NCBI RefSeq assembly: GCF_903893715.1
Contig: NZ_CAITNG010000121.1
Coordinates: 1 to 64,000, forward strand
Length of the DNA stretch: 64,000 nt
Reading direction: 5' to 3'
Source: an uncultured Mucilaginibacter sp.
GTDB taxonomy: Bacteria; Bacteroidota; Bacteroidia; Sphingobacteriales; Sphingobacteriaceae
Shown piece after piece: positions 41,946 to 59,849 of this stretch. A program made the position numbers and the translations under genes. The first letter of the stretch is position 1. Every line of letters starts with the position of its first letter. The notes beneath the pieces are model-generated. The model had not been told where the DNA came from. It was given only the letters and a program-made list of their open reading frames with translations, and searched no databases.

Positions 41946-42698
41946 TTATTTATTGATAATTACTTTAGCGCCAATAGCCGCGGTATCGGTACGGCCGGTA
42001 AGCCCATAGCTAAACAAGGTATACAATTTGCCGTCTTGTATGGTAATGAGTGGCACATCCACCAAAACACTGCCGGGTGCACCTGTGGCATAAATCTTAA
42101 AATCGTAAATACCGGCAGGCATTTGCACATATGGGGAAAAATTAGAATACGCTATACCGCTGAAGGCTGTAGTGCCGTTAGCGGTAACACTAAGCCCGGT
42201 AGTGCGCGGCGAAGCGTTTACAAACCTGATTTTCCCGCTGCCAATTGTCGATGCAGTTGCCGTGTCCACGGTCAGTACAGTAATAATGCTGTCAGCTGCA
42301 GTTGTTGCCGATTTGAGCCCCATTATATAAAGGGTATAATTAGTATTGGCAGCAAGGTTATCGGTTCTGGTTTTTATGGTGTAAAGCTGGGTATTAAGTA
42401 CCTGCATGTTTTGTATACCATTACCTATCCCGTAATAGCTCGATGGATAAGGATATTTAAAAGTGGTGGCGGTGCTGCCTATCCGATTGCTGCCGATAAG
42501 TAAAGTAAGGGGCAAAACATCGGGACTGGCATTCACTACCAATATTTTGGTGGCAGCAGCGGAGGGGCTTACCGAAGCCCCTGTATTGGCATTGCACGAT
42601 GTGATAACCATTGGCAGCATGATGATATAGAGGATATTGAACAACCATACTATTGGAGTATTTATTCGCAGCGGGGATTTATAATGGTTGTTGTTCAT
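41946..42698 (-). CDS. DUF4397 protein (second of a tandem pair)
   Basis: A 250-residue secreted protein with two DUF4397 units: LVVNASPDVLPLTLLIG and IRFVNASPRTTGLSVTANG. The N-terminus has a hydrophobic segment ending VITSC, a probable lipoprotein site. DUF4397 is an Ig-like extracytoplasmic domain of unknown function. It lies 23 bp after its paralogue. Confidence 0.82.
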   Translation of the reverse strand: MNNNHYKSPLRINTPIVWLFNILYIIMLPMVITSCNANTGASVSPSAAATKILVVNASPDVLPLTLLIGSNRIGSTATTFKYPYPSSYYGIGNGIQNMQVLNTQLYTIKTRTDNLAANTNYTLYIMGLKSATTAADSIITVLTVDTATASTIGSGKIRFVNASPRTTGLSVTANGTTAFSGIAYSNFSPYVQMPAGIYDFKIYATGAPGSVLVDVPLITIQDGKLYTLFSYGLTGRTDTAAIGAKVIINK

Positions 42699-42721
42699 TT
42701 CACAAATTTATCAGCTATAAC

Positions 42722-43411
42722 TTAATTCTGAATCAAGCCTACATTAAAAGCTTTAACGCCTGTTTGGTTGATAAGGCCGTAACTAAAAAAGGTATAAACA
42801 CTGTTCGAGCTTAAAGTTATCGTGGCATTCAAAATAGTATTGGATGTGCCGGCTATGTTCACTTTAACTGCTACCGCCCCCGAATCAGCCAAAGCGTAAC
42901 CGGATACAGACTTGTATGCCTTATTGCTCAACACCAAACTGTTCAAATAAACATCGAGCGATGGCGAACCGGGTGCCGCGTTTACAAACCTGAGTTTAGG
43001 TTTGCCAGTGGGGTGTGGCTCGGCATTGGCAGTTAAAATAGTGCTTACAGGGTTTGGAGCGTTTGCGACATAATCGCCTGTTACAAACATGGTGTAGTTC
43101 GAATCCGGCTTGAGTGTTAGCGAGGCCTCCTGTATTTGTGTATAGGTGGTGTCCTTAAACGATACATTTTGCTGTTCTGATGGCACACTAAGGTAACCCG
43201 ACGACTCGAGGTAAGCTATTTTGTTGCCATTTTGCCGGGTACCGTTAAAATACATATTAATAGTAGGCGCTTCGGGTATTATGTTGATGAAGGCCAAGTT
43301 TGCCGGCTGGGCCACGGGGTCGGGCGCATCATTGTTGCTCTTATTGCAGGCACAAAACCCTACTACAACGGTGCAAATAAAGAACAGATAATGCGTATAT
43401 CTAAAATTCAT
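42722..43411 (-). CDS. DUF4397 lipoprotein (first of a tandem pair)
   Basis: A 229-residue lipoprotein: the signal ends VGFCAC with Cys22 the probable lipidated residue, followed by NKSNND. Two repeats are seen, AFINIIPEAPTINMYFNG and LRFVNAAPGSPSLDVYLN. Tandem duplication with the next gene is evident from the shared repeat and C-terminal TLFSYGL/TFFSYGL motif. Confidence 0.83.
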   Translation of the reverse strand: MNFRYTHYLFFICTVVVGFCACNKSNNDAPDPVAQPANLAFINIIPEAPTINMYFNGTRQNGNKIAYLESSGYLSVPSEQQNVSFKDTTYTQIQEASLTLKPDSNYTMFVTGDYVANAPNPVSTILTANAEPHPTGKPKLRFVNAAPGSPSLDVYLNSLVLSNKAYKSVSGYALADSGAVAVKVNIAGTSNTILNATITLSSNSVYTFFSYGLINQTGVKAFNVGLIQN

Positions 43412-44338: not shown

Positions 44339-44815
44339 GTGAAGACCTACCACTTTAAATTCGAAACCGACCTGCCAATACCCTTGGCCGAAGCCTGGGA
44401 CTTTTTTTCATCGCCGCTAAACCTGGCGAAGATTACCCCGGAAAAAATGAATTTCATTATTACCTCCAATTTTACTGCCGATACCAAAATGTACCCGGGT
44501 ATGTTCATTTCGTACAAGGTATCGCCGCTGTTAGGGATAAAAATGAACTGGGTTACCGAAATTACCCATGTCAAGGAGGGGGAATACTTTGTGGATGAAC
44601 AACGCACAGGCCCATACGCTATCTGGCATCATGAGCATCATTTTACCGAGATAAAAGGCGGTGTACACATGACAGATATTTTGACTTATGCCATCCCATA
44701 CGGCATCATCGGGCGGATTGCCAACAAACTGATTGTTGAAAAAGAAGTGAAAACCATTTTTGCTTACCGCGATGAGGAAATCAAAAAGCTTTTTGGTGTT
44801 TATCGCGCCAAATAA
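44339..44815 (+). CDS. SRPBCC/START-like ligand-binding protein
   Basis: A 158-residue protein of the Bet v1/START-like superfamily: PIPLAEAWDFFSSPLNLAKITPE, a sheet with WVTEITHVKEGEYFVDEQ, and a C-terminal helix ending in VKTIFAYRDEEIKKLFG. It probably binds a small hydrophobic ligand. The start is GTG 44339. It converges on the CE7 gene (6-bp gap) but is on the opposite strand from that operon. Confidence 0.82.
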   Translation: MKTYHFKFETDLPIPLAEAWDFFSSPLNLAKITPEKMNFIITSNFTADTKMYPGMFISYKVSPLLGIKMNWVTEITHVKEGEYFVDEQRTGPYAIWHHEHHFTEIKGGVHMTDILTYAIPYGIIGRIANKLIVEKEVKTIFAYRDEEIKKLFGVYRAK

Positions 44816-44821
44816 GCCGGG

Positions 44822-46201
44822 TCAATACATCCTGAAATAGTCCTGATACCAAAGGTATTGATAGGTATAATACAGGTCGTCAACTTCGTGGGTTTTGTTG
44901 GGGCTTACCCATATTTCCTTGTTTTTGTTTTTCAGCACGTTATAGGTAGCGAAGCTGCACTCGGGCGGGCAAAACTGATCTAACAAGCCAATGGCCATTA
45001 ATACCGGGCATTTTATTTTAGGCACAAAATTCACGGGGTCGTAGTAGTCCCAAACCTTAAACAGTTTTTCCTTACTGAAACTCGGGTGGGTACGAACATA
45101 GTTCACCAACATGCCCACCGGCGTTTGCGATTGCGGGTCTAAAGCAGTTATCTCATACGCCCGCCTAAAATTGGTGTAAAGAGGGACTTCGCAGGTTACC
45201 AGTTTAACGCGCTTGTCCATTGCCGCCAAAGCAAGCACCAAGCCGCCGCCCTGGCTGGCACCATCAACCAATATCTTGCTGGTATCTAAACCCATGGCGG
45301 CTTGCGCGCATAAAAAATCGAGCCCGCGTATACAGTCCATATAAACGGCGCGATAAACGTATTCATCCTTATTTTCTACGTTGTAAAGGTTGTACTCGCC
45401 GTGGGTATCAATAGCATCGGCACTGTTGCCGTTGCCGCGCACGTTAAAGTTGAACACGGCAAAATCCTTATCATCAAATGATGGTTCCATTTTTACCACA
45501 TAACCCGGAAGGCGGTATTTTACAGGTATTTTTTTAGGGCGTTCGTTGGGTATAGTCAACCATCCGCGCACCGTAACATTCCCCCATGACTGCATCTCGA
45601 CCAAATACACCTGCTGTCCGTTGATAGACAGGGCGCGCTCCAGTGTCATTTTATATTTAGGCGGTATCTTTTTCAGCGAGTCGCGCGAGGCTTTCCAAAA
45701 CGCGTCAAAATCATCAGGAATATGCTGTATCGCCGTTATGTTTTTGGGATTAAAACCAAACACACGTTTTACTGTATCATCGTACAGGCTTAGGTTAAAG
45801 CCAAAGCCAATTTTATAAAAGCCAGGGTTTTTGCAAGGTATTTTAAAATGGTAACGGGTGGTACTCTTTTTATCTATCTTAACATTGATTGAATCTTCAT
45901 ATATTTTGACGCCTTCTTCGGTGGTTACAAAACATCTTACTTTACCTTCCTGAGGTTTTTTATAAGCATTTTTTAATTTTACGGTGTAGCCTACCGCGCC
46001 TTCGCCGGTAAAAATGGCATTTTTTACAGCCGGGGTTACAGTAATGAAAACATTACCCTCGTCATCGGCATTTTGTCCCTGGGTAAGGGTATCCTGTTTT
46101 GCGGCGTTAAAGTTTTCGGGGAAAATGTATTGGGCGCGCACGCCGCTATAACACAGAACGATCAGCGTTACCGATACAAAAAACTTTAGGCTTAATTTCA
46201 C
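44822..46201 (-). CDS. CE7 acetyl esterase (single unit)
   Basis: A 459-residue secreted carbohydrate esterase family 7 (acetylxylan esterase/cephalosporin-C deacetylase) protein. Signal peptide about 1-23. An N-terminal beta domain (about 50-150) precedes the alpha/beta hydrolase. The triad is S316 in DGASQGGG, D408 in AIGLLDQF and H438 in NKTHEVDD. It is last in the 44.8-55.2 kb operon and shares its N-terminal domain with each unit of the triple CE7 protein. It removes acetyl (possibly other short acyl) groups from glycans. Confidence 0.9.
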   Translation of the reverse strand: MKLSLKFFVSVTLIVLCYSGVRAQYIFPENFNAAKQDTLTQGQNADDEGNVFITVTPAVKNAIFTGEGAVGYTVKLKNAYKKPQEGKVRCFVTTEEGVKIYEDSINVKIDKKSTTRYHFKIPCKNPGFYKIGFGFNLSLYDDTVKRVFGFNPKNITAIQHIPDDFDAFWKASRDSLKKIPPKYKMTLERALSINGQQVYLVEMQSWGNVTVRGWLTIPNERPKKIPVKYRLPGYVVKMEPSFDDKDFAVFNFNVRGNGNSADAIDTHGEYNLYNVENKDEYVYRAVYMDCIRGLDFLCAQAAMGLDTSKILVDGASQGGGLVLALAAMDKRVKLVTCEVPLYTNFRRAYEITALDPQSQTPVGMLVNYVRTHPSFSKEKLFKVWDYYDPVNFVPKIKCPVLMAIGLLDQFCPPECSFATYNVLKNKNKEIWVSPNKTHEVDDLYYTYQYLWYQDYFRMY

Positions 46202-46222
46202 ACGGTAAATTTAAATGTTCTG

Positions 46223-47086
46223 TTAAAATTTATAACCATAGCCCAACGATACACTACTGCCTATTGCTGTGTTTTTACCACTTATAAAGGTAGTATAACT
46301 TAACGACAAGCTGCGGCTATGCCCCAAGCCGTACGAAAGGCCGGCGGTTACCTCGTTCGACGAATAATCCTTTGCCGGCGCAGGGCTGGCGGGGTTAAAG
46401 GTCTTGGTGATACTGTATGACGTTGCCGACGATTCGGAGAGCGACAGTTGCAGCTTTTTGGCTAACGATGTCCCGATGGATGCTGTAAACTGTCCCTGTA
46501 AAGGTGCGTCGCCGCCAAAATACTGACTCGTGCTCAGGTCAACCTCAAAAAAGAAGCTTTTGCTCAACATATTAAAATCGCCGGCGGCGGCCAATTGTAT
46601 ACTGCTGCCCAACTCGCCATAACCTCTTGTTACAGCAGCTGTATTAACATATAACGGGAATATAAGGTTGCCCTGGATTGAAAAATAGGTGCGATAGGCG
46701 ATATTGGCAAGGTAATAGCGCACACCAATCTGCCCATCGCCAAGGGTGTTGATGGTACTATTGGATATATCACTTCTCACCATGTTGGATACAAAAGGAA
46801 CAGACGCCATTAACGATACCCGCCTTGAAAAGCCGTACTCGGCACTAATGGATGCCGATAACGATGAGTTCCTTTCATTAAAAGCATAGTTTTGTACTTG
46901 CCCGTTTTGGTCCCAAAACTGATGGTTAAAAAAGTATGATGCGCCTATATTGATAAATAATCGGTGTTTGCCAACTGGTCTGCCACCCGCATAAGTAGCC
47001 ATACTGAGCAACAACAGAAGCGCGCCCAAAGCAAGGCATTTTATAGCGGTAAATTGTTTATGCGAAGTATTAAAGGTTATGGTCAT
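46223..47086 (-). CDS. outer-membrane beta-barrel protein
   Basis: A 287-residue exported protein with signal peptide (to about residue 34, ATYA). It consists of alternating amphipathic strands (LFINIGASYFF, LSASISAEYGFSRRVSLMAS, FFEVDLSTSQYF, LSLSYTTFIS) and ends in the aromatic Phe typical of outer-membrane insertion (SLGYGYKF). It is of the meta-pathway/transporter-like barrel type without a recognised substrate. Sitting between two CE7 genes (22 and 18 bp gaps), it may pass glycan or acyl products across the outer membrane. Confidence 0.75.
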   Translation of the reverse strand: MTITFNTSHKQFTAIKCLALGALLLLLSMATYAGGRPVGKHRLFINIGASYFFNHQFWDQNGQVQNYAFNERNSSLSASISAEYGFSRRVSLMASVPFVSNMVRSDISNSTINTLGDGQIGVRYYLANIAYRTYFSIQGNLIFPLYVNTAAVTRGYGELGSSIQLAAAGDFNMLSKSFFFEVDLSTSQYFGGDAPLQGQFTASIGTSLAKKLQLSLSESSATSYSITKTFNPASPAPAKDYSSNEVTAGLSYGLGHSRSLSLSYTTFISGKNTAIGSSVSLGYGYKF

Positions 47087-47103
47087 TTGCTTAGTCGAAT
47101 ATA

Positions 47104-50100
47104 TTAAAATGCCCCGAGTTCATCCATGGCCCACTTCATTTTATACGAACCAAGCCAAGGGTCCACTTCGTGCGTCAGGTTGGGGTAAATGAACAGTTTT
47201 TTCCATGCAGTAATGTTGTTGTACATAATCATCTCGTTAGTTGGCGGCACCAGCGGATCGAGCAAACCAATACCTACAATTACCTTACACTGAATGTTGG
47301 GTACAAAATTTTTCAGGTTAAAATATTCAAAGTTATCGAGCAGTTTCTGCAGGGTTACCGATTTTTGGTCGGCATAATCCGTAAAAACTGTGGTTGGCCA
47401 TTTATTGGCATAGTACGGCATTTTCAAATCGATATAGCCAGGGTTTTCGGCCTCGCACAAGGTTACGCGATGGTCAACACTGGCCAGGCAAAGGGTTAAG
47501 TACCCGCCCTGGCTACCGCCGGTAACAAAGATGGATTGCGTGTCAAAAATCTCTTTATGCGCAAACACAAAATCGAGCAGGCGCACACCATCCATAATGG
47601 AGCCGCGGTAAATAAACTTGTCTTTATCTTCCAACCCGTACGATATATATTCTTCGCGTTCGGGGTGTATCACATCGCGGCTGTTGCCTTGCCCGCGTAC
47701 GTTTAACGCTATAAAAGCCATATTGGGCGCTCCATGCAATGGTACCATCGCGTTACCATAACCCGGTAAGTTTATAAACACCGGGAACCTGTCTTTAGGC
47801 TTTCTATCTTTAGGCAAAGTAAGCCAGGCCCTGATGGTTAAATTACCCAAAGACTGCATCTCGATGAGATAAACCTGTTCATCGGGAGTAATCTCCATTT
47901 CCGGCTTCTCCGTCATTTTAAAGTTTGGCGGTACAGCGGCCAATTCCTTTTTGGTCCTGTCCCAAAACTGGTCAAAATCGGCAGGTTTAGGGTAGTTTGA
48001 ACGGATGTGCTCTATATCTACACCAAAAACACGGCGTAATGTATCATCATAATCACCCACATCAACCGCAAAGTTTATTTTATAAAAGCCTGTTTTTTGG
48101 GTGGGTATATCTACATGCACACGTTTGGTACCGCGCGAATCGATACTGATTTTGGATGAGTCTTCTTTAATAAATTTATCGTCGGAGGTATACACAAAAT
48201 AGCTAAACATACCGTCCACCTTTTTAAAGAAGTTGTTTTTCAGGTCAACGTCATAGCTGATGGTAGTATTGGCTTTAAAAACGGCTTCTTTAGTGGCCGG
48301 ATGGTCAATAATTACAACCGACTCGCTGCCAGATTCCGCTTCTTTAACCTTATCCAGTTCATTCTGTTTGTTAAAGGCAAGATACCTGTTCCATATATTC
48401 AGCTTTTTATATACCCAAGGACCGATGTAAGCACCCATTTCGGGGCCTATGTCATGCGCCAGGGTTGGGAAAACAAATAGCTTTTTATCGGTAGCCGGGA
48501 TGCTGTTGAACATGGTGGTTGAAAGCGTAGGTGGTGCCATGGGGTCGAGCATGCCTATACCAACTACGGTTGGCGCGTTTATTTGTGGGGCAAAATTCTG
48601 CAGGTCGAAGTAATCAAGGGTGTTCAAAATCTCGTCGAGGTTTTCGCCGTTGTTTTTGGCGTATAACTCAATCTCACCCATCGGAAAGGCATTACTTGCC
48701 TGAACGGACAATGTTCTGAAATCAGCAAAAACAGGGTTGTTTGCTGTGGATATTGTAACCCTCTTGTCCAATGCCGACAAAGCCAAAGCGAGGTACCCGC
48801 CCATACTGGCACCCGATGCATAAATCGCGGTCGAGTCGAGTTCGGGGCGGCTGCACACAAAATCGACCAGACGCTCGCAGTCCATCAACACGCCTTTTAA
48901 AATGTACTTGTTTTTGTTCTCGATATCAGTAGTGATGTATGCTTCACGTTCGGGTTTTATCACATCGTCGCTCATCATCTGGCCGCGTACACTGATGTTA
49001 AGCAATGCAATGCCCGATGAAGCCACAAGTGGCACCGCACTGGCTGCGTACCCGGGCAGGTATATACTTACTGGCAAACGCTGGCCGGGTTTAAGGTCTT
49101 TTTGCAAGGCCATATACCCCCTTATGGTGATATTATTGAGCGATTGCATTTCTATTTGGTACACCTTGTCGTTATGCTCCATATCGGGCATTTCGGTTAC
49201 TTTGAAATTAGGTGGCACCTTGGCGAGCTCCCTTTTTGCACCTGCCCAAAACTCATCAAAATCGGCAGGTTTATGGCCGGCGGCCATTATCTTATTGGTA
49301 TCAACAGCAAACGCGCGCCTTAAGGTATCGTCGTATTTGGAGGTGTTGATCATGAAATTCAAATTGTAATAACCAGGGCCTTGTGCAGGTATTTCGAAGG
49401 CAACGTTTTTAGTGCCTTTTGCTTCGATGCTTACCGGTTGCGAACCATTAGCAACAAGTTTACCTTCGGGTGTAAACACCGCGTACGATATTTTGCCTGT
49501 TTGTGTGGTCTTAAAACTGCTCTTCAGGTCTACCGTATAGGTAACCGGCGCATCGCTTTTATACACCGCGCTTTTATTGATGGGATGTTCAACCAGGTCG
49601 ATCACTTCGGCATTAGGGTCAACCACAGGTTTGGCCGCGTTGGCAGCCGCAGCAGCGGCTTCAGGTTTATGAAAAGCTATCCACTTGTCGTAAATCTTTA
49701 GTTTCTGATAAACCCAGGCCCCTACATACGTACCCTGTTCATCGCCAACCTCGTGGGCCAGGTTAGGAAATATGAACAATTTTTTATTCTTCCCGGGGAT
49801 ATTGTTCCATGCGGCCATGGAGGCTATCGGCGCGATAAAGTTATCCAGCAAACCGATACCCATTATCACGGGGCATTTAATGTGGGTTGCAAAACCTTTT
49901 AAGCAATAATAATCCCATGTTTTTAAACATTTCTCAAAATCAAGACCGGTACGGAGTGAGTAATCCTTCATGGTATTTATTGGGAATACTTCGGTGCTCA
50001 TGGCCCGTATATCGGGATAACCGGGGTTATCTGCCGAGCATATCGTAACACGGTCATCCAATCCGGCCGTAGCCATTGACAGGTATCCGCCCAAACTACC

Positions 50101-51009
50101 GCCTGTAACAAATATAGCTTTCGAGTCGAGGTAATCTGTACTGCAAATAAAGTCTATCGCCCTCACGCAATCCATCATCACTCCTTTAAAAACGTAGGTG
50201 TTTTTATCCTCCACACCAATATTGATGAAAGCATCGTGCGTTGCCGGGTGTATCACATCGCGACTATTACCATAACCACGTATGTTGAGTGCCAGAAAGG
50301 CCATGCCCGACACGCCATAATGTGGGTACATTTCGCTGTTAAAACCGGGATAAGCTATGGATACGGGCAATTTTTCGCCTGGTTTACGGTCGTGCGGCAA
50401 AGTAAGCCAGGCCCTTATGGTCATGTTACCGAGCGATTGCATTTCCACCAGAAAAATATCATCGTTGCCTTTTGACAATTTGGGTTGTGGCGTAACCTTA
50501 AAGTTGGGTGCTACGGCAGCCAGTTCTTTTCTGGCATTATCCCAAAAATCCCAAAAATCGTCGGGCATTTTATATGGGGATACCATATTGGTAGTATCCA
50601 CACCAAAAACACGGCGAACGGTATCGTCATCATCCGTTACGTTCAACATAAAGTTGACTTTGTAAAAACCCGATGGTTGTGATGGGATGTTGAACTGTAC
50701 CTGTTTAGTGCCTTTGGCATCGATAGTTACCGGCTGGGAGTATTTGGTGATTAATTTATTCTTAAAGTCGGTAACGGCGTAGGATATTTTGCCGCTTTGC
50801 TGGCTGTTGTAGGTGCTACGCAGGTCGATTTTATATTTTACGGTATCGTCTTTTTTAAATATCGAGTTCCTGTCGGCCGCATGTTCGTTAATGATGATTT
50901 CTTCGGCAGCAGCAGCCGGTTTCTGCTTGCTTTGGGCCAAAAGGGTTTCCGTTTGCCCTATCGCCAAAAAGAAGAAAAATACCGATAATAACTGTTGTTT
51001 CAATTTCAT
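47104..51009 (-). CDS. triple-domain CE7 acetyl esterase, 1301 residues
   Basis: One polypeptide of three complete CE7 units after a signal peptide (about 1-26). Each unit is a beta domain plus an alpha/beta hydrolase. Triads are S305/D389/H419, S735/D822/H852 and S1166/D1251/H1280, so all three look active and repeat every 430 residues. Motifs are GGSLGG, GASMGG and GGSQGG. An alanine-rich linker (about 449-460) separates units 1 and 2. CE7 proteins are usually about 320-450 residues. The units differ enough to be an old triplication. It follows an acyltransferase gene by 6 bp and precedes the barrel gene. Confidence 0.92.
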   Translation of the reverse strand: MKLKQQLLSVFFFFLAIGQTETLLAQSKQKPAAAAEEIIINEHAADRNSIFKKDDTVKYKIDLRSTYNSQQSGKISYAVTDFKNKLITKYSQPVTIDAKGTKQVQFNIPSQPSGFYKVNFMLNVTDDDDTVRRVFGVDTTNMVSPYKMPDDFWDFWDNARKELAAVAPNFKVTPQPKLSKGNDDIFLVEMQSLGNMTIRAWLTLPHDRKPGEKLPVSIAYPGFNSEMYPHYGVSGMAFLALNIRGYGNSRDVIHPATHDAFINIGVEDKNTYVFKGVMMDCVRAIDFICSTDYLDSKAIFVTGGSLGGYLSMATAGLDDRVTICSADNPGYPDIRAMSTEVFPINTMKDYSLRTGLDFEKCLKTWDYYCLKGFATHIKCPVIMGIGLLDNFIAPIASMAAWNNIPGKNKKLFIFPNLAHEVGDEQGTYVGAWVYQKLKIYDKWIAFHKPEAAAAAANAAKPVVDPNAEVIDLVEHPINKSAVYKSDAPVTYTVDLKSSFKTTQTGKISYAVFTPEGKLVANGSQPVSIEAKGTKNVAFEIPAQGPGYYNLNFMINTSKYDDTLRRAFAVDTNKIMAAGHKPADFDEFWAGAKRELAKVPPNFKVTEMPDMEHNDKVYQIEMQSLNNITIRGYMALQKDLKPGQRLPVSIYLPGYAASAVPLVASSGIALLNISVRGQMMSDDVIKPEREAYITTDIENKNKYILKGVLMDCERLVDFVCSRPELDSTAIYASGASMGGYLALALSALDKRVTISTANNPVFADFRTLSVQASNAFPMGEIELYAKNNGENLDEILNTLDYFDLQNFAPQINAPTVVGIGMLDPMAPPTLSTTMFNSIPATDKKLFVFPTLAHDIGPEMGAYIGPWVYKKLNIWNRYLAFNKQNELDKVKEAESGSESVVIIDHPATKEAVFKANTTISYDVDLKNNFFKKVDGMFSYFVYTSDDKFIKEDSSKISIDSRGTKRVHVDIPTQKTGFYKINFAVDVGDYDDTLRRVFGVDIEHIRSNYPKPADFDQFWDRTKKELAAVPPNFKMTEKPEMEITPDEQVYLIEMQSLGNLTIRAWLTLPKDRKPKDRFPVFINLPGYGNAMVPLHGAPNMAFIALNVRGQGNSRDVIHPEREEYISYGLEDKDKFIYRGSIMDGVRLLDFVFAHKEIFDTQSIFVTGGSQGGYLTLCLASVDHRVTLCEAENPGYIDLKMPYYANKWPTTVFTDYADQKSVTLQKLLDNFEYFNLKNFVPNIQCKVIVGIGLLDPLVPPTNEMIMYNNITAWKKLFIYPNLTHEVDPWLGSYKMKWAMDELGAF

Positions 51010-51015
51010 TGTTTC

Positions 51016-52284
51016 TTATTTAACCTCAATTACGTCGCTGCCGATACTTGCCGGTGCCACATCTGCATCGAGCGGTTTTGCATGTGTTTTTTTATGCGTT
51101 AAAAATTCTTTTACGCGCCTGTTCAAAGGCTCTTCAACAAATTTGTAGATGAAGATAGAGATGCCGAACAGCGCGGCCAAAATGTAAAATACGTTGATGG
51201 CATCGTTCTCGAAAGGTGAGTGCCAGTCGAGACCCCATTTATCGTACAATTCGAATACCCTGTCGTTTAACCAGTTGATGCCATTATGGATAAAATTACT
51301 GATGGGCCCAAGATGTATCAGATAGAACAAGAACGAACTGTTGCTCAACAACGTAACAAACTTGCCCGATAGTATCCTTTGCATAATGGTTTCTTCGCGT
51401 ATCAAACCCAAAAAGAATATGCCGATGGCCGGGGTGAGCATAACGGTATCGAGTATCATACCAGTGTAGGTTTTGATGCCGAATACCTGGCCCGGCCCAA
51501 GCGGGATGAGCGTAAAGAAGTAGATGCACACAAACATCAGCACAAAACCGATATAGGTGATCTTGATCTTACCAAACTGGTTCACCTTCATTTTGTGGTA
51601 GTATAAGGCCAATACCATCCCGACAAAAATTTCGATACAGCGGCCAAAAAAGGTGTAATACAACATAAACACGATGTTGCCCATAAAGCCGTACCAATTA
51701 AACCTGCCAAAAATATATACCAACAGGTAGCCCATAGGCACAAAAACCAGCGGCTGCCATATCAAAAATTTACGGTCTTTTTTAACCAGATAAAACACAA
51801 TCGGGGTAATAACGTAGAACACCACGTCGACAGTGATAGACCAGCCCTGACCGATGCCTGTAAACTTCAGATCCTCGAAAAAGCCACGTAAAAATGTTAA
51901 ATTTAAAAATATGGTGAACCATGGATGGTTTGCCTCGCCTACCAAACTGGCGGCCGATTGCTAGTTAAAATACCAATAGACAAATGCGAGCGTAGTGAAA
52001 ATAAAGTACATGGGGTACAACCTCGCCGCACGACTTATCCAGTATTTTTTGGCCCATTTCATACTCAGTTCAAAGCCATCAAAATAGCGTATAGTTATCA
52101 AAAAGCCGGTGAGCACAAAAAACATGGGCAAACCTATGCTCAACTCGTTACAGTAGCGTTGTACCCAAGCGGGTGCCCATGCAAACAGCACATAGCCAAA
52201 GTGCGTTAAAAACACCAAAATGGCCGCGAGGGCGCGTACACCTGTTAAAGCCGGGAAAAATTTCTGTTTTGTACCTTCAGCCAT
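51016..52284 (-). pseudogene. acyltransferase-3 gene A, interrupted by an amber codon
   Basis: A membrane O-acyltransferase (acyltransferase_3, OafA-like) of about 423 codons. The frame opens MAEGTKQKFFPALTGVRALAAI and runs to a TAG at 51963-51961; the same frame continues as QSAASLVGEANHPWFTIF without another stop to 51016. Typical parts are LFFVLTGFLI-type helix (GLPMFFVLTGFL), FTGIGQGWSITVDVVFY and YLIHLGPISNFI. Around ten membrane helices. Alignment to copy B shows ordinary sequence at the stop position. It is a nonsense mutation, a sequence error or two separate fragments. Confidence 0.8.
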
Positions 52285-52299
52285 CTTGTCCTTTTTTTA

Positions 52300-52990
52300 T
52301 TAATATAGGCCTCCGTTAATATCGATGCAGGCTCCGTTAATATATGTGGTATCCATTAATAGTTGTATCGTTTTAAAAATATCGTCGGGGTTACCCAGTT
52401 TTTTGTTGGGGATGCGGCTCTTAAGTTCCTCCAGATACTTTTCAGGCACTTCCCTTATCAGGCCGATATCAAAATAGCCCAGGTTCAATGTATTGCACGT
52501 GATGTTTTTACCGGCGTTCTCTTGTACCACAGTCTTCATCAAACCCCACAGGCCCGATTTGCTGGCCGCATAGGCCGATGCCCCTGCCACACCCGTTTGT
52601 GCAACAATGGACGATATAAAAACAATGCGGCCGTATTCCTGAGCGCGCATATAAGGCAGCAATATCTTGCAGATGTAAAAGGTCGACGTGAGGTTAACGT
52701 GTATCAGCTTCTCCCACTCCAACAAGGGGAATTTGTGCATATAGGCGTTAAAACTAACGCCTGCACAGTTGATGAATTTAATATCGGCCAGTTTATCACC
52801 CAGGCCCAACATTGCTTTTTCGGTTTCCTCAAAGCTGTTCAGGTCAACCTGGCACCAGGTGATGTTTTTGTGTTCAAAATCGGGAGGGGGTACTGTTATA
52901 AAAAGCGATAACAGGCTCATCGGTTGTATGAACCAGTTTTTGCAGTAAATGCCTGCCAATCCCTTTTGATGCTCCTGTTAATAAATACAT
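52300..52990 (-). pseudogene. SDR (FabG-like) reductase gene with a frameshift
   Basis: The true start is ATG 52990, giving MYLLTGASKGIGRHLLQKL and reading on to VIAFYNST, where the frame breaks at a C5 run (52890-52886). The rest (PPDFEHKNITWCQVDLNS onward) is in another frame: NCAG, ISSIVAQTG, SAYAASKSG, then GACIDINGGLY. Removing one C restores a continuous protein of about 230 residues. It would reduce a 3-ketoacyl or similar group. It is placed directly downstream of the ketoacyl synthase. Confidence 0.82.
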
Positions 52991-53002
52991 TTTACTTTGC
53001 TA

Positions 53003-54007
53003 CTATGTATATGCGTGTATAATGGGTTGTTTAATCGAAATAATGGATGCCCCGTAAGTAAAGCCCGCGCCAACGCCGGCCACTATAATCTTCATGCCCT
53101 GTCTGATGCGGCCATCGGCTATAGCCTCTGATAAAGCTATCGGTATTGAACCCGAATTTGTATTGCCGATGTGCTCGATGTTGATGATAAACTTACTGAT
53201 AGGTAAATTTAACTCGGCAGCCAAGCCTTCCAACATACGTTTATTGGCTTGGTGCGGTACAATATAATCAATATCGTCGAAAGTTAAATGGTTTTTGCCC
53301 ATCACTTCCAATATCACTTCTTTAAACAAGGCTATCCCGCCGCTAAATATACCACGCGAAGTAAACTTCATAAAGTGGTTGGTATTGACCAAGGTTTCGG
53401 GCGTAATGGGGTTCTTGCTGCCACCATCGCAAGCGCTAACGCTCATCAGGTCGGTGCTGTCTAATTTGCAAATGGTATCGATAATTTCGTTGTGTTCATC
53501 GTCCGTATGCTCCAATAAAACCACGCCCGCGCCGTCGCCGAAAATCAACGATGTCTTTTTATCCATCGGGTCGATAATGCTGGTCATTTTATCGGCAGCG
53601 CACAACAACACGTTTTTGTACTGGCGCGAGTTTAACAAGGCCGAACCTATTTCAAATCCGTACAAGAAACCGCTGCAAGCCGCCATGGCATCAAAACCCC
53701 AGGCGTTTTTGGTACCCAGTTTATGGTGAACCACTGCCGCTGTGGACGGGCAAGGGAAATCGGCCGTCATGGTGGCTACGATGATGCATTCTACATCCAA
53801 CACGTCCATACCGCAAGCCGAAAGGCATATTTTGGCCGCGTTAACAATCATGTCTGAAGTTGCGCCTTCATTAAATATACGGCGCTCCAATATACCCGTC
53901 TTCTCAGCAATTACATCACTGTCCATATTTAAACGGGCACCCAGCTCCACGTTGGTTATACGTGTTTCGGGTATAAAATGACCGATACTTTTTATGGCTA
54001 CTCCCAT
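53003..54007 (-). CDS. 3-oxoacyl-ACP synthase III-like (FabH family)
   Basis: A 334-residue thiolase-fold condensing enzyme. The triad is C111 in DAMAACSGFLYG, H252 in PHQANKRM and N282 in GNTNSGSIPIAL, so it looks active. The N-terminal VAIKSIGHFIPETRITNVEL is FabH-like. Setting inside an acyltransferase/reductase/esterase operon suggests it starts or extends a dedicated acyl chain rather than bulk fatty acids. There is no acyl carrier protein gene in the operon. It lies 12-13 bp from its neighbours. Confidence 0.88.
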   Translation of the reverse strand: MGVAIKSIGHFIPETRITNVELGARLNMDSDVIAEKTGILERRIFNEGATSDMIVNAAKICLSACGMDVLDVECIIVATMTADFPCPSTAAVVHHKLGTKNAWGFDAMAACSGFLYGFEIGSALLNSRQYKNVLLCAADKMTSIIDPMDKKTSLIFGDGAGVVLLEHTDDEHNEIIDTICKLDSTDLMSVSACDGGSKNPITPETLVNTNHFMKFTSRGIFSGGIALFKEVILEVMGKNHLTFDDIDYIVPHQANKRMLEGLAAELNLPISKFIINIEHIGNTNSGSIPIALSEAIADGRIRQGMKIIVAGVGAGFTYGASIISIKQPIIHAYT

Positions 54008-54018
54008 GTTCTTAAATT

Positions 54019-55241
54019 TTAGTTCTGCAGTTCGGCGCTTTGCTTTTTATAAGGCAGTAAAAAACCCGACTTGCGTATATAATGGTTTAAAGGCTCTTCA
54101 ATATTTTTATACAGCAAAATGGCTACGCCGTTTATGGCGATGAATATATACACCAAATTCAAAGTGTCATTTTCGAATGGTGTATGCTGCCAGCTGATAT
54201 TCCACTTGTCGTAAAGCGCAAAAATGGCATCGTTTAACCAGTTTACCGAAAAATGAAACATGCTGTAAATAAAGCCTAAATGTATCAAATAAAATATATA
54301 CGAGCTTTTCCCCAATAGTTCAACAAAGGGGTTGGCCAGTATCCGTTTCAAAAAACTCGCTTCGGTAAGCAGTCCGTAAAAGAACAGCGTTATCGATGCT
54401 GCCAGCAAATAGTTGTTGGTAATGATACCAAAAGGGTGTTGCTGACCAAACCCGTTACCCGGCAAGATCGGCAATACCGACATGATGCCCACGCAAAAGA
54501 ATATCAAAAAAAAGCCGAAGTACGTAAAGCTTACCCGTTCTTTCGTTCGAAACCTTTGCGCTTAACATAAAGAGCCAATAATATTCCCGAAAAAAACTCA
54601 AAACACCTGCCGAAAAACGTATTCAGCATCATAAAGGTAAAGTTGCCGAAGAAACCATACCAGTTTATATTCCTGAATATCAATACCAAAACAAAGCCAA
54701 AACCTGTAATGATGAAGGGTTGCAAATAAAACCTACCCCATTTTTTTGCCGCGAAAAACATGAGCGGCGCCGAAAAATAAAAACACTCTTCCACCGTGAG
54801 CGACCAGCCCTGGCCAATGCCCGTAAACTTAAACTGGTCGAAAAAACCACGGACAAATGTAATATTCATTAAAAACACGGCGATTGGGTGGTTAAAGCCA
54901 TTTAAAACACTCGGCTCTTTTGTTACCGAGTAAGCAATGAACGCGCAAATGGTGAGCAAAAAGTACATGGGATAGATGCGCGCCACCCTGTTTTTTAAGT
55001 ATTGCTTAAACCAATCGCTGGTTAGCGAAAAATTATCGTAATAGCGGAAAGCAATCAAAAAACCCGAAAGCACGAAGAAAATGGTAACGCCAATGTGGAA
55101 CTCACGGAAAAAAGCTTGCACATAGTGGGGAAGATTTTCATCAAAAATATCATGAAAATGCGATATGAACACCAGGTAAGCAGCCATGGCCCGTACGCCT
55201 GTTAATGCAGGAATGTAATTTTGCAGCGCTTTTTGTGACAA
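54019..55241 (-). pseudogene. acyltransferase-3 gene B, frameshifted
   Basis: Homologue of gene A of about 407 codons. From TTG 55241 the frame reads SQKALQNYIPALTGVRAM, FTGIGQGWSLTVEECFYF and so on to ALYVKRKGFERKNG and a TAA at 54533-54531. The continuation (ERVSFTYFGFFLIFFCVG, to 54019) is in the -1 frame and aligns with gene A (GKIKITYIGFVLMF). The break is around CGAAAGAAC near 54540. An O-acyltransferase of the inner membrane if repaired. Confidence 0.8.
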
Positions 55242-55311: not shown

Positions 55312-56268
55312 CTATAAAGATAGTGCAGACCCTTGAATAATCCCTCTTTTGCGAATAGTTTCGTCGATAAAATGTTGTATTTCCGATTTTTTGAGGCCCC
55401 AGTCGGGTGCGATGAGCAGGTCGCGGTCCGACAGGCCAAATAAGCGCTGTATCACGATGTCTTCCCGCACCAGCGGCAACAGCTCGCATAAAAAGTCGGT
55501 GTACTCCGGCAGGCTAAACAGTTTAAATGGTTCGCGTTTGTATTTTACGCCCATAATGGACCCTTCCACAATATGCAGATGATGGAATTTAACGAATTTA
55601 ATTTGCGGGAAAAGGTTGATTTCGTCGGCATATTTCAGCATCATTTCGTTCGTTTCGCCCGGCAGGCCGAAGATGGTATGCACGCAGACATCCAGTTTGG
55701 AGTTTTTGAGCAGTTCGAGCGCGTTGAGCAATTCGCTGTGCGAGCAGCCCCGGTTCAATTGCGAGAGGGTTTCATCATAGATGGACTCCATGCCCATTTC
55801 CAGGTCCACATCAAAGCGGTCGGTATAACTTTCCAGCAAGGCAATCTTTTCGGCATCGATGCAATCGGGGCGGGTACCTACGGACAGGCCGACGATATTT
55901 TCGGGCTCGTAACTCAACGCCTCATCATACAGCATTTTTAAATAATGCGCAGGTGCGTAGGTATTGGTATTGGGTTGGAAGTAGATGATAAACTTATCGG
56001 CCTTATTACCTGTGCGGGCACGTTCCATGCCTTTTATCACCTGCTCGCGGATAGATGGGTTTTCGCGCGAGACAGTGGGCGTAAAGGAATCGACATTGCA
56101 GTAGGTGCAACCGCCAAAGCCTCTGGAGCCATCGCGGTTGGGGCAGGTAAAGCCGCCATCAACAATTACCTTAAAAACTCGCTGGCCATTATACTTTTTA
56201 CGCAGCCAGGCGCCGTAATTATTGTAAGTTTTAAAGCCTTCGGCTACCGGTGTCAATTCTGCTTGCAT
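55312..56268 (-). CDS. YhcC-family (TIGR01212) radical SAM protein
   Basis: A 318-residue Elp3-like radical SAM enzyme of unknown reaction. The cluster motif is [37 protein letters not shown] and [14 protein letters not shown] are family blocks. It has a good promoter with almost no leader (-7 element ends 5 bp before ATG). It is the first gene upstream of the acyl operon, 70 bp before acyltransferase B. Confidence 0.9.
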
Positions 56269-56303: not shown

Positions 56304-56380
56304 GAATCAAGAACCAAGACATGCACCGTCATCGAGACGTAGCTTTCAGTCTTAATTCTTGCATCTTGATTCTTGAATCT
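56289..56380. repeat. AATCAAGA-type inverted repeat
   Basis: Arms of 32 bp (56289-56320 and 56349-56380) made of AATCAAGA-like words are inverted copies at roughly 75 % identity with 28 bp between. It lies between the divergent yhcC and icmF genes. Confidence 0.75.
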
Positions 56381-56397
56381 ATCTCAGTTATTTTGGT

Positions 56398-56405
56398 TAA
56401 TTTTG
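56398..56405 (+). promoter_or_regulatory. -7 element of icmF
   Basis: TAATTTTG, 20 bp before ATG 56426. A TTG 22 bp upstream (56373) comes from the repeat arm. Confidence 0.45.
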
Positions 56406-56425
56406 TATTACTAACCGATTATAGT

Positions 56426-56914
56426 ATGGACGCCGTTTCCGTTTATAAACCACAGAATAAAATTCGCTTTGTAACTGCTACCTCGTTGTTCGACGGGCAC
56501 GACGCTACCATCAATATCATGCGCCGTATTTTGCAATCGAGCGGGGCCGAAGTGATACATTTAGGCCATAACCGTTCGGTTGACGAGGTGGTAAATTGCG
56601 CCATACAGGAAGATGTGCAGGGCATTGCTTTAACATCATACCAAGGCGGGCACATCGAGTATTTTAAATACATTTACGACCTGCTGAAAGAACGCGGCGC
56701 GGGCCATATAAAAATATTTGGCGGCGGCGGCGGGGTGATATTGCCACACGAGATAAAAGAATTACAGGACTACGGTATCGCACGCATTTACTCGCCCGAT
56801 GACGGCCGGCACATGGGTTTGCAGGGCATGATAAACGATATGATGCGCCAATGCGATACACCCATTACATCGCACCTGAATGGCGAGATGAAATATCTTC
56901 CCAAAAAAAGATAA
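56426..56914 (+). CDS. icmF: IcmF N-terminal part: B12-binding domain (split by frameshift)
   Basis: A 162-residue cobalamin-binding domain. [18 protein letters not shown] is the IcmF form of the DxHxxG histidine-ligand region; LTSYQGGH and [14 protein letters not shown] line the cofactor tail pocket. The frame ends at TAA 56912 right after an A7 run (56903-56909). If one A is removed it continues into [23 protein letters not shown] and joins the downstream gene, making the usual fused isobutyryl-CoA mutase. ATG 56426 is preferred over an upstream start in the repeat. Confidence 0.85.
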
Positions 56915-56939
56915 TAAAGCAATCGCGACAGCCATCAGC

Positions 56940-59849
56940 GTGGTGGAGAACTATCCATCGAACGCCGGGTTTTTAACCGAACTCAAAAAAATAACCAATA
57001 AAGAGATACCCGTTTTAGGGATAACCGGCACGGGCGGCGCGGGTAAATCGTCCTTAGTGGATGAACTGGTGCGCCGTTATTTGATGGAAACGGATAAAAC
57101 GCTGGCCATTATCTCTGTCGACCCATCCAAACGCAAAACGGGCGGCGCGCTATTGGGCGACAGGATACGGATGAACTCTATTAACAGTCCGCGCGTCTAT
57201 ATGCGCTCGCTGGCTACCAGGCAGGCTAATTTGGCTTTGTCGAAATATGTACAGGAAGCTATAGATATTTGTAAAGCGGCCGGTTACGATTTGATCATTG
57301 TGGAAACATCGGGTATCGGTCAGTCTGATACGATGATCACGGATTATTGCGACTTGTCCTTATATGTGATGACCCCAGAGTTTGGCGCCGCCACGCAGTT
57401 GGAAAAGATAGACATGCTGGACTTCGCTGATATTGTGGTACTCAACAAGTTCGACAAGCGGGGTGCTTTGGATGCGTTACGCGATGTAAAGAAACAATAC
57501 AAACGCAACCACCAGCTTTTTGACGCGAAGGATAGCGACCTGCCGGTTTTTGGCACCATGGCATCGCAGTTTAACGATCCGGGGATGAACAGTCTGTTTG
57601 TAGCGCTTATCAAAACCATCAAAGCAAAAACTGGCGTCGACTTCCGCACCAAAAACGAAATGGTAGGCGAGGATGCTGAAAAATCTTACATTATCCCCCC
57701 AGACCGTACCCGCTACCTTGCCGAAATTGCAGAAAGCAGCGCGGCGTATAATGAATGGGTGGATGCGCAATGTAAGATAGCCCAACAACTATTCCAGGTG
57801 AAGGGTGTGATGGAATTGACAGCCCCACCCAAACCCTCCCCGGAAGGGAGGGCTTTAAAAGCAAATCAAAAAGTCTCCCCTACCGGGGGAGATTTAGAGG
57901 GGGCTTTGCAGGATATTTACACCCATTTAGAAGAAAGCCTTGACGCCGAATGCCGCAAGTTATTGCGCGAATGGCCACAAACCATCGAGACCTATAAAGC
58001 CGATAACTTCATCTATAAGGTACGCGATAAGGAAATCAAACAGCCTTTGTATTATACCTCGTTATCGCAATTGCGGGTGCCAAAAATATCGTTGCCTAAA
58101 TATGAGGCATGGGGCGATGTTTTGCGCTGGTTATTAACCGAGAATGTACCCGGCGAGTTCCCCTATGCGGCAGGTGTATTCCCGCTGAAGCGAGAGGGAG
58201 AAGACCCAACCCGTATGTTTGCCGGCGAAGGCGGGCCGGAGCGTACCAATAAGCGTTTTCATTACGTGTCGCTGGGGCAACCCGCACACAGGCTATCCAC
58301 CGCTTTCGATTCGGTTACCCTTTACGGGGAAGACCCGCATTTGCGGCCCGATATTTATGGTAAGATAGGCAACTCGGGCGTGAGCATCGCTACGCTGGAT
58401 GATGCGAAGAAACTGTATTCGGGTTTTGATTTGTGCCATGCGGCTACCTCGGTATCCATGACCATTAATGGCCCCGCGCCTATGCTGTTGGGCTTTTTTA
58501 TGAACGCGGCTATTGACCAGCAATGCGAGAAATATATCATCGACCACAAATTGGAGCATTTGGTTGAAGCAGCCTTTAAAGCCAACTACGATGATAAAAA
58601 ACTCAAGCGCCCACATTATGGCGCGACCGACCCTACCCTCCCGGAAGGCAACAGCGGCTTAGGCTTAATGCTTTTGGGCCTTACCGGCGACCAGGTGCTG
58701 CCTGCCGATGTATATGCTAAAATAAGAGCGCACGCCATATCCACCGTAAGGGGAACCGTGCAGGCCGATATATTAAAGGAAGACCAGGCGCAAAATACCT
58801 GTATCTTCTCTACCGAGTTCGCGCTGCGGATGATGGGCGATATACAGCAGTATTTTATCAGCGAAAAGGTGCGTAACTTTTACTCGGTATCCATATCGGG
58901 TTACCATATTGCCGAGGCGGGCGCTAACCCTATAACGCAACTGGCCTTTACCCTGAGCAATGGTTTCACTTACGTGGAATATTACCTGAGTCGTGGGATG
59001 AACATTGACGACTTTGCACCAAACCTATCCTTCTTCTTTAGTAACGGCATCGACCCGGAATATTCGGTGATTGGTCGCGTGGCGAGGCGCATCTGGGCTA
59101 AGGCCATGAAAAACAAGTACAAGGGCAACGACAGGGCGCAAAAATTGAAATACCATATCCAGACCAGCGGCCGCTCGCTGCACGCGCAAGAGATCGACTT
59201 TAACGATATCCGCACCACGCTGCAGGCCTTGTATGCTATTTACGATAACTGCAACTCGCTGCATACCAATGCTTACGATGAGGCCATCACTACCCCTACC
59301 GAAGAATCGGTACGCAGGGCCATGGCCATACAACTCATCATCAACCGTGAGTTAGGCTTGGCCAAAAACGAGAACCCGATACAGGGCGCCTTCATCATCG
59401 AAGAGCTGACCGACCTGGTAGAGAACGCCGTACTCGCCGAGTTTAAACGCATCAACGACCGTGGCGGCGTGCTTGGCGCGATGGAGACCATGTACCAGCG
59501 CGGTAAGATACAGGAAGAATCATTGTACTACGAAACGCTGAAACATACCGGCGAATACCCGATAGTAGGCGTAAACACCTTTTTGAACAAGAACGGCTCG
59601 CCAACCATTATCCCATCGGAAGTGATACGCGCCACCGAAGAGGAAAAGCAATACCAGATATCGGCCCTTGAGGCCTTTAAGCACCGTAATGAAAGCCGCG
59701 CGCCGCAGCTGCTCAAAAACCTGCAAAAAACAGCCGTTGCCGGCGAGAATATTTTTGAGAGCCTGATGGAAGCCTGTAAATATTGCTCCTTAGGGCAAAT
59801 ATCACATGCGCTGTATGAAGTGGGCGGGCAGTATAGGAGGAATATGTAG
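56940..59849 (+). CDS. icmF: IcmF main part: G-protein chaperone and acyl-CoA mutase domains
   Basis: A 969-residue frame. The MeaB-like GTPase loads and protects the B12 cofactor: P-loop [18 protein letters not shown], then [26 protein letters not shown] and [10 protein letters not shown]. After a linker with a 28-residue repeat-encoded insert (about 295-322), the mutase barrel follows ([55 protein letters not shown]). It interconverts isobutyryl-CoA and n-butyryl-CoA or related pairs. GTG 56940 is only a frame start; the real N-terminus is the B12 domain upstream. Confidence 0.88.
57821..57905 (+). repeat. palindromic repeat element inside icmF
   Basis: About 85 bp with outer arms AGCCCC/GGGGGCT and inner hairpins CCCTCCC-CGGAA-GGGAGGG and CTCCCC-TACC-GGGGGAG. 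It is translated in frame as proline- and glycine-rich sequence ([15 protein letters not shown]...) in the linker. Similar ends occur at 59850-59875 after the gene. Confidence 0.8.

Follow-up and report, generated by a model that had tools for sequence, protein, structure and literature searches.

We describe a run of seven minus-strand genes, from position 55241 down to 44822, in a 64,000-nucleotide stretch of DNA (the window) from an uncultured Mucilaginibacter sp., contig NZ_CAITNG010000121.1. We tentatively read the run, with somewhat less than an even chance of being right, as an enlarged envelope acylation module. Its core would consist of an acyltransferase-3 protein (AT3a), secreted CE7 esterases and an outer-membrane barrel, to which three species would have added a supply of 3-hydroxyacyl groups other than acetyl; all functions are proposed from homology and predicted fold. 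The genes follow each other in the order AT3a, KAS III (ketoacyl synthase III), SDR (a putative reductase), AT3b, triple CE7, barrel and single CE7, in a genome (G000) of 4.02 Mb and 161 contigs assigned to Mucilaginibacter. They are separated by gaps of 11, 12, 15, 6, 17 and 21 bp, a spacing that suggests co-transcription. Above cut-off, Pfam assigns Acyl_transf_3, ACP_syn_III, adh_short, again Acyl_transf_3 and then AXE1 (CE7), which occurs three times in a 1301-aa frame and once in the last gene. Gene content, order, strand and tight spacing (6-21 bp) are thus as the original prediction had them. The arrangement is more than chance, as all seven genes are open, in the same order and at the same locus, in M. 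rivuli HMF5004 (L037) and Mucilaginibacter sp. PPCGB 2223 (L038), where the operon is flanked by mnmL and the same convergent gene pair as in the window. In the window itself four of the seven genes are open as read, but AT3a, SDR and AT3b are not open frames.

The core of the run is common in the genus. An AT3a orthologue (E<=1e-80) was found in 139 of 149 Mucilaginibacter genomes and in 115 of the 117 good ones. We read 72 regions of the genus, 20 of them selected through CE7 hits and 50 through the hit list of AT3a, plus the two intact relatives. They were chosen by hand and not at random, and five of the 50 (G171, G082, G126, G141 and G183) were taken deliberately as having no CE7 near AT3a among the matches listed. 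Genes on the same strand with gaps of at most 400 bp were counted as one run. AT3a is present in 70 of the 72 regions, with mnmL at most two ORFs upstream in 58 of these 70. CE7 and barrel stand in the AT3a run in 56 of the 70 hand-picked regions, with a median gap of 15 bp, and for the 50 that came from AT3a hits the full run is seen in 36. CE7-barrel (19 runs) and barrel-CE7-CE7-barrel (13 runs) are the commonest orders after AT3a. Relatives therefore do have a conserved neighbourhood, and what is conserved across the genus is AT3, CE7 and barrel. A linked acyl unit with an outer-membrane protein stands from the combined acyl system that had been proposed, while its single eight-part make-up does not.

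Presence and absence across genomes point to how the parts depend on each other. CE7 (E<=1e-60) occurs in 105 of the 117 good genomes, and all 105 have AT3a. Ten of the 12 good genomes without CE7 at this threshold retain AT3a, and the only two that lack it (G151 and G310) fall among those 12 (hypergeometric p 66/6786 = 0.0097, with no kinship correction). Co-presence was derived by elimination from the two match lists, the CE7 places per genome being those among the matches listed. CE7 accompanies AT3a, which for its part seems able to dispense with CE7. This fits CE7 enzymes that act on the product of AT3a better than CE7 enzymes that are needed for the transfer itself.

A need for CE7 in transfer is what a split acyltransferase would imply: the AT3 protein would pass the acyl group to a periplasmic CE7 protein, an alpha/beta hydrolase, which would attach it to the acceptor in place of the SGNH domain of OatA or OafB. 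The close AT3-CE7 linkage in two families agrees with this. So does, in the part of PMC13276840 available, a Bacteroides CE7 whose N-terminal fold is unannotated and which moves acetyl and some propionyl groups from vinyl esters to mannotetraose, and, in excerpts of PMC9558356, OatA, whose esterase-like domain is a transferase. We nevertheless consider this rather unlikely, given the ten good genomes that keep AT3a without CE7 at the above threshold (one, G229, with a sub-threshold CE7). In addition, the CE7 proteins of the window are unaccelerated although AT3b evolves faster and AT3a is interrupted, and the AT3 frames in the scanned regions, at 350-428 aa, include no fusion to CE7. Also unlikely, in our view, is a two-part acyl transfer machine in which a stand-alone AT3 exports, separate periplasmic CE7 proteins attach and the barrel lies alongside, with three species feeding a 3-hydroxyacyl group instead of acetyl.

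The set recurs outside the genus. A phylum search with AT3a gave matches in ten genomes beyond Mucilaginibacter. In one of them, G459 (region L086), AT3, CE7 and barrel lie in this order beside what appear by eye to be recA and nadA. A search within the family of G459 found AT3 matches in 8 of 147 genomes, and CE7 and barrel accompany AT3 in four of the eight regions (L086, L151, L152 and L153), the CE7-barrel pair being repeated three times in L151 (AT3-CE7-barrel-CE7-barrel-CE7-barrel). Among the others, in L155 CE7 runs to the end of the contig and AT3 is in two frames, L154 is cut inside AT3, and L150 and L156 have AT3 with neither CE7 nor barrel. The flanks known from the window (mnmL, SRPBCC-like and RNaseH-like) occur in none of the eight regions, i.e., the set occupies a different locus there. 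This recurrence of the AT3-CE7-barrel order at a different locus in a second family argues against the view that CE7 and barrel are ordinary genes for plant-polysaccharide uptake and deacetylation that came to lie beside an acyltransferase by chance. Bacteroidota CE7 enzymes do work in mannan loci according to the available part of PMC13276840, and CE7-barrel units without AT3a exist (L072 and L085). However, the run genes, mnmL and the gene pair on the opposite flank include neither SusC/SusD nor a glycosidase, and AT3a is present in every good genus genome with CE7, so that we regard a chance neighbourhood as quite improbable.

The CE7 proteins of the window have kept the residues of a Ser-Asp-His triad. 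The triple CE7 (47104..51009, 1301 aa; PF05448, 398 bits in three stretches) has, by eye, a signal peptide, followed by three copies of an N-terminal domain with a CE7 domain, each with Ser, Asp and His. The single CE7 (44822..46201, 459 aa; PF05448, 162.6 bits) carries Ser316-Asp408-His438 by alignment with 1ods. Its structural model (pLDDT 81.4) shows a strand-rich N-terminal domain and a CE7 domain, the nearest solved fold being 1l7a with a TM score of 0.83 by target. Across the three species, an alignment of all 12 CE7 units shows an invariant triad. A simple pattern was also run on 92 CE7 frames of 401-519 aa from the 82 regions scanned: it recovers all three residues in 83 frames, while for nine its Asp part does not match. 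Multi-CE7 proteins with extra copies of the N-terminal domain that lack a CE7 domain were observed at L066:7880-11215 and L067:8115-11111. Removal of acyl groups by four CE7 sites had been predicted; the domains and triads are there, but deacylation was assumed from the name, and a Bacteroides CE7 transfers acyl groups to sugars in vitro (PMC13276840, in the part available).

Neither Pfam nor NCBIfam has a family that the barrel (46223..47086, 287 aa) matches above cut-off. Its predicted model is of low confidence (mean pLDDT 59.7) and has 12 long strands; the best solved matches are outer-membrane channels, namely the COG4313 channel 4rl8 (E 4.4e-9) and then FapF. PF13557, which we take to be the COG4313 channel profile, has no match up to E 0.05 in the three barrels. 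The available parts of the respective papers describe COG4313 channels in the uptake of hydrophobic molecules (PMC4493636) and FapF in amyloid export (PMC5557850). The suggested outer-membrane pore thus agrees with the fold of known channels, but on a weak model and without a family match. In 15 of the 72 genus regions a protein of 673-782 aa, which looks secreted by eye and contains as many as 16 TPR stretches, is the immediate neighbour of CE7 or barrel (e.g., L096:4724-6853 and L100:5783-7804). Pairing of a TPR protein with a barrel has its analogy in exopolysaccharide modification-and-export systems. At E<=1e-60 the multi-TPR protein was found in 4 of 20 genomes tested, off the module in two of these (G174 and G155), and it was absent at this threshold from G000, G180 and G121. 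Homologous proteins of 327-332 aa follow CE7 at L111:6406-7404 and L130:6537-7520, the former without a Pfam match.

For the core we propose the following order of events. As its family membership suggests, AT3a would draw on a cytoplasmic acyl thioester and acylate a glycan or glycolipid at the periplasmic face. The secreted CE7 proteins would act on this product, most likely as editing esterases; the by-eye signal peptides, the kept triads and the distribution over genomes point in this direction. The barrel, judged by its predicted fold, may pass the product, or its hydrophobic part, across the outer membrane. In the three species with the added genes, KAS III and a FabG-like SDR, together with the general acyl carrier protein (ACP), would make a 3-hydroxyacyl group longer or bulkier than acetyl for an altered AT3b. 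The general ACP is invoked because none fits in the run, whose gaps are too small for one.

Both acyltransferases of the run belong to the AT3 family. AT3a is split into an N-terminal piece with a TTG start (54531..55241; PF01757, 74 bits against a cut-off of 31; 90% identity to M. rivuli) and a C-terminal piece in another frame (54019..54507), which alone has no PF01757 match. The intact gene encodes 411 aa in M. rivuli and 406 aa in PPCGB 2223, and both align over their full length with AT3-only proteins, i.e., there is no fused SGNH domain. AT3b consists of an N-terminal piece that stops at an in-frame TAG (51961..52284; PF01757, 37.8 bits) and a remainder in the same frame (51016..51960, listed ORF start 51945; 43.8 bits). 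R-X10-H and RxxR, which are AT3 motifs according to the available part of PMC9833829, are present in both proteins by alignment; in AT3a they lie, like the GWSLTVEE segment, on the N-terminal piece. The Glu of a further pattern, GWSLTVEE, is found in 77 of 85 aligned AT3 rows, AT3a included, and is a regularity of this set rather than a published essential residue. At its site all three AT3b proteins have Asp (GWSITVDV in the window) and the second AT3 of G221 (L066_3) has Asn; the pattern was not found in four distant rows.

At 46-48% identity, AT3b is not a recent copy of AT3a. In a careful tree it joins the second AT3 of G221 (support 96/94), with the fork towards the AT3a rows of the genus left open and a long-branch warning. 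A quick tree without the G221 protein placed it beside these rows, the clade of both having an SH-aLRT value of 98. In G221 the two AT3 genes form a tandem pair (L066:5396-7860), the second directly after AT3a, ahead of two multi-CE7 proteins and without KAS III or SDR, a layout that looks like a step towards the arrangement of the window. In G111 a second AT3a-like match with 59% identity and one TGA lies off the usual locus (G111:C1:1972356-1973561).

The KAS III-SDR-AT3b part is rare. A KAS III orthologue is found in 3 of the 149 genomes, the copy of the window being 88% identical to that of M. rivuli and 81% to that of PPCGB 2223; among the matches listed, the same three genomes have a match across nearly the whole triple CE7. 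No KAS III above 45% identity was detected outside the window's own genome in a phylum draw of 392 genomes, and a scan of genome contigs gave KAS III above 39% identity in only the two named relatives. Since the KAS III part is present in three of 149 genomes, it is most simply an addition to the core, gained here rather than lost elsewhere. The predicted making of an acyl group by KAS III and reductase is accordingly limited to these three, with SDR and AT3b interrupted in the window. Co-occurrence, likewise, is widespread for AT3, CE7 and barrel but is confined to the same three genomes for KAS III, SDR and second AT3 together with the core.

KAS III (53003..54007; PF08541/PF08545) has kept its catalytic triad Cys111, His252 and Asn282. 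At a pocket site aligned to the Phe of 2ebd and 4dfe it has Cys86 in all three species; of 34 comparators, 33 have Phe there and the last has a gap. Presumably this Phe lines the primer pocket and is typical of acetyl-type FabH. Smaller residues at the FabH pocket site are associated with longer or bulkier primers. The SDR comprises an N-terminal piece with TGASKGIG that ends in a frameshift, as seen in an alignment with the intact relatives (52874..52990), and a remainder in another frame with YAASK (52300..52884; PF00106/PF13561). This remainder, the part that was scanned, matches FabG-like models, none of them over its own cut-off. Together, KAS III and SDR would yield a 3-hydroxyacyl-ACP. 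Rhizobium exopolysaccharides bearing O-(3-hydroxybutanoyl) groups are on record, judging by the title of a work cited in PMC6628131.

Other roles for these genes were considered and dismissed. A housekeeping role as FabH does not suit KAS III: three more matches of KAS III type pass the cut-off in the genome, and the operon copy reaches only about 40% identity with the remaining KAS III matches of the family. Regions L039-L045, with further KAS III relatives, do not carry the operon, as KAS III is all that they share with the window out of 18 proteins and pieces compared. No weight was given to the IcmF-like mutase upstream of the run as a supplier of the acyl group; it adjoins mnmL in genomes without KAS III too.

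What the three interrupted genes mean for the organism depends on whether the breaks are real. AT3a (at about 54.5 kb) and SDR (at about 52.88 kb) are frameshifted, while AT3b has the in-frame stop (TAG at 51961). Outside the run, the fused B12-binding/mutase gene just mentioned (56321-59849, plus strand; named by eye) is split at about 56.9 kb and forms one 1140-aa frame in M. rivuli. Among 26 M. rivuli frames that match the window at more than 55% identity, only AT3a, SDR and the mutase are matched in two frames. For 11 genes we compared amino-acid changes found only in the window with those found only in M. rivuli, with PPCGB 2223 as outgroup; p values are uncorrected. AT3b, with 55:18 changes (p 1.7e-5), is the only one of the 11 to survive correction, and AT3a has 30:17 (p 0.079). 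No acceleration is seen in triple CE7 (84:111, p 0.062), barrel (19:24) and single CE7 (26:26), nor is the rate of the split mutase raised (22:29). The flanks give 12:4 for mnmL (p 0.077), 4:12 for the SRPBCC-like gene (p 0.077) and 3:1 for the RNaseH-like gene.

The recent acceleration of AT3b together with its stop codon fits a loss of constraint, and the SDR data are suggestive of decay in the window lineage. As part of the favoured reading, and with the same slightly less than even confidence, we therefore suppose that AT3b, and probably SDR, are decaying in the window organism, with the CE7 proteins and the barrel still under selection. Whether all breaks are mere sequencing or assembly errors in an operon that is whole is a question separate from that of function, and its probability does not compete with those of the functional readings. 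We think this somewhat unlikely. The unaccelerated mutase next door is split as well, all four breaks fall within 5 kb, and dN/dS is low wherever dS could be computed. Set against this, AT3b is significantly and SDR nominally faster in the window lineage, and the AT3b break is an in-frame stop without change of length. As the split mutase is unaccelerated, some breaks may be assembly errors, and decay may exist alongside them.

Several observations weigh against an enlarged module with a decaying addition. The excess of SDR changes (19:6, nominal p 0.015) is lost after correction for 11 tests, and KAS III, with 11:16, is not faster in the window lineage. The dN/dS ratios between window and M. 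rivuli are 0.03-0.13 wherever dS is computable (0.10 for the AT3b remainder), with dS close to or beyond saturation for most genes; such low values imply that any decay is recent. The faster change of AT3b could instead be adaptive. An acyl chain longer or bulkier than acetyl is suggested by one pocket residue and by earlier FabH work, and the identity of the barrel by a low-confidence fold. The run genes, mnmL and the gene pair on the opposite flank include no glycan synthase. Fourteen of the 50 AT3a-list regions lack the full run, 13 of them with neither CE7 nor barrel in it and one (L114) cut by the contig edge after CE7; two other regions have CE7 and barrel without AT3a, and G229, scored as free of CE7, holds a sub-threshold CE7 in region L139. 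Beyond the genus, CE7 stands next to AT3 in none of the nine remaining phylum regions (L087-L095), and of 166 genomes drawn from other genera of the window's family, one had an AT3 match (G117, region L157), there without CE7. That the SDR rate fails correction and that the regions were not picked blind slightly lowers our confidence.

The flanking genes serve as locus markers. Upstream is mnmL (55312..56268, minus strand; radical SAM tRNA modification; TIGR01212, 285 bits, over cut-off), which lies outside the proposed function. On the other side, the convergent SRPBCC-like gene (44339..44815, plus strand; named by eye, with no Pfam family over cut-off) has counterparts of 84% and 73% identity at the same place in M. 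rivuli and PPCGB 2223. Past this flank, 41946-43411 (minus strand) encodes a neighbouring pair of proteins that look secreted and, by eye, DUF4397-like, and relatives of one or both occur at the same place in L037, L038, L066, L067 and L073. A Bacteroidota promoter common to the upstream regions of AT3a was rejected: the consensus TTG-N18-22-TANNTTTG occurs in 2 of 68 regions versus 0.64 by shuffling, and in none of the three operons.

The AT3-CE7-barrel set apparently is a recurring and undescribed one: we found no description of it in the open-access literature, judged mostly by titles and the starts of abstracts, and nothing in open-access full text that brings AT3 and acetyl xylan esterase together, be it for Mucilaginibacter or for Bacteroidetes. 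The novelty lies less in the list of eight parts than in this recurrent set. The available part of PMC9558356 calls it an open question how the transfer is completed by AT3 proteins that lack a fused SGNH domain. A recurrent set of AT3, secreted serine esterase and barrel supplies candidates for this step, and it offers natural variants with AT3 alone, AT3 and one CE7, AT3 and many CE7s, and AT3 with KAS III/SDR.

Compared with known systems, the run resembles OafB and OatA in its AT3 family membership and essential motifs and in having an esterase-fold partner outside the cytoplasm; here, however, the candidate partner is a separate CE7 alpha/beta hydrolase gene instead of an SGNH domain, sometimes in several copies, and an outer-membrane barrel is added. 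The Ica system likewise pairs an AT3 protein (IcaC) with a deacylase (IcaB) on an exported glycan, as excerpts of PMC9558356 describe, but the run has no synthase, its deacylase would be a CE7 enzyme whereas IcaB N-deacetylates, and it includes a barrel. With BcCE7 of mannan loci (PMC13276840, in the part available) the CE7 proteins share the CE7 domain, an extra N-terminal fold and the Ser-Asp-His triad; they differ in their linkage to AT3 and barrel instead of SusC/SusD and glycosidases, and in having up to three units per chain. The barrel would be like COG4313 channels (4rl8) and FapF in a weakly predicted 12-stranded fold of about 290 residues, but the window protein has no PF13557 sequence match. 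Finally, KAS III shares the Cys-His-Asn triad and about 40% identity with the FabH of the genus, and differs from FabH-type enzymes in the exchange of the pocket Phe for Cys and in its place in an acyltransferase run.

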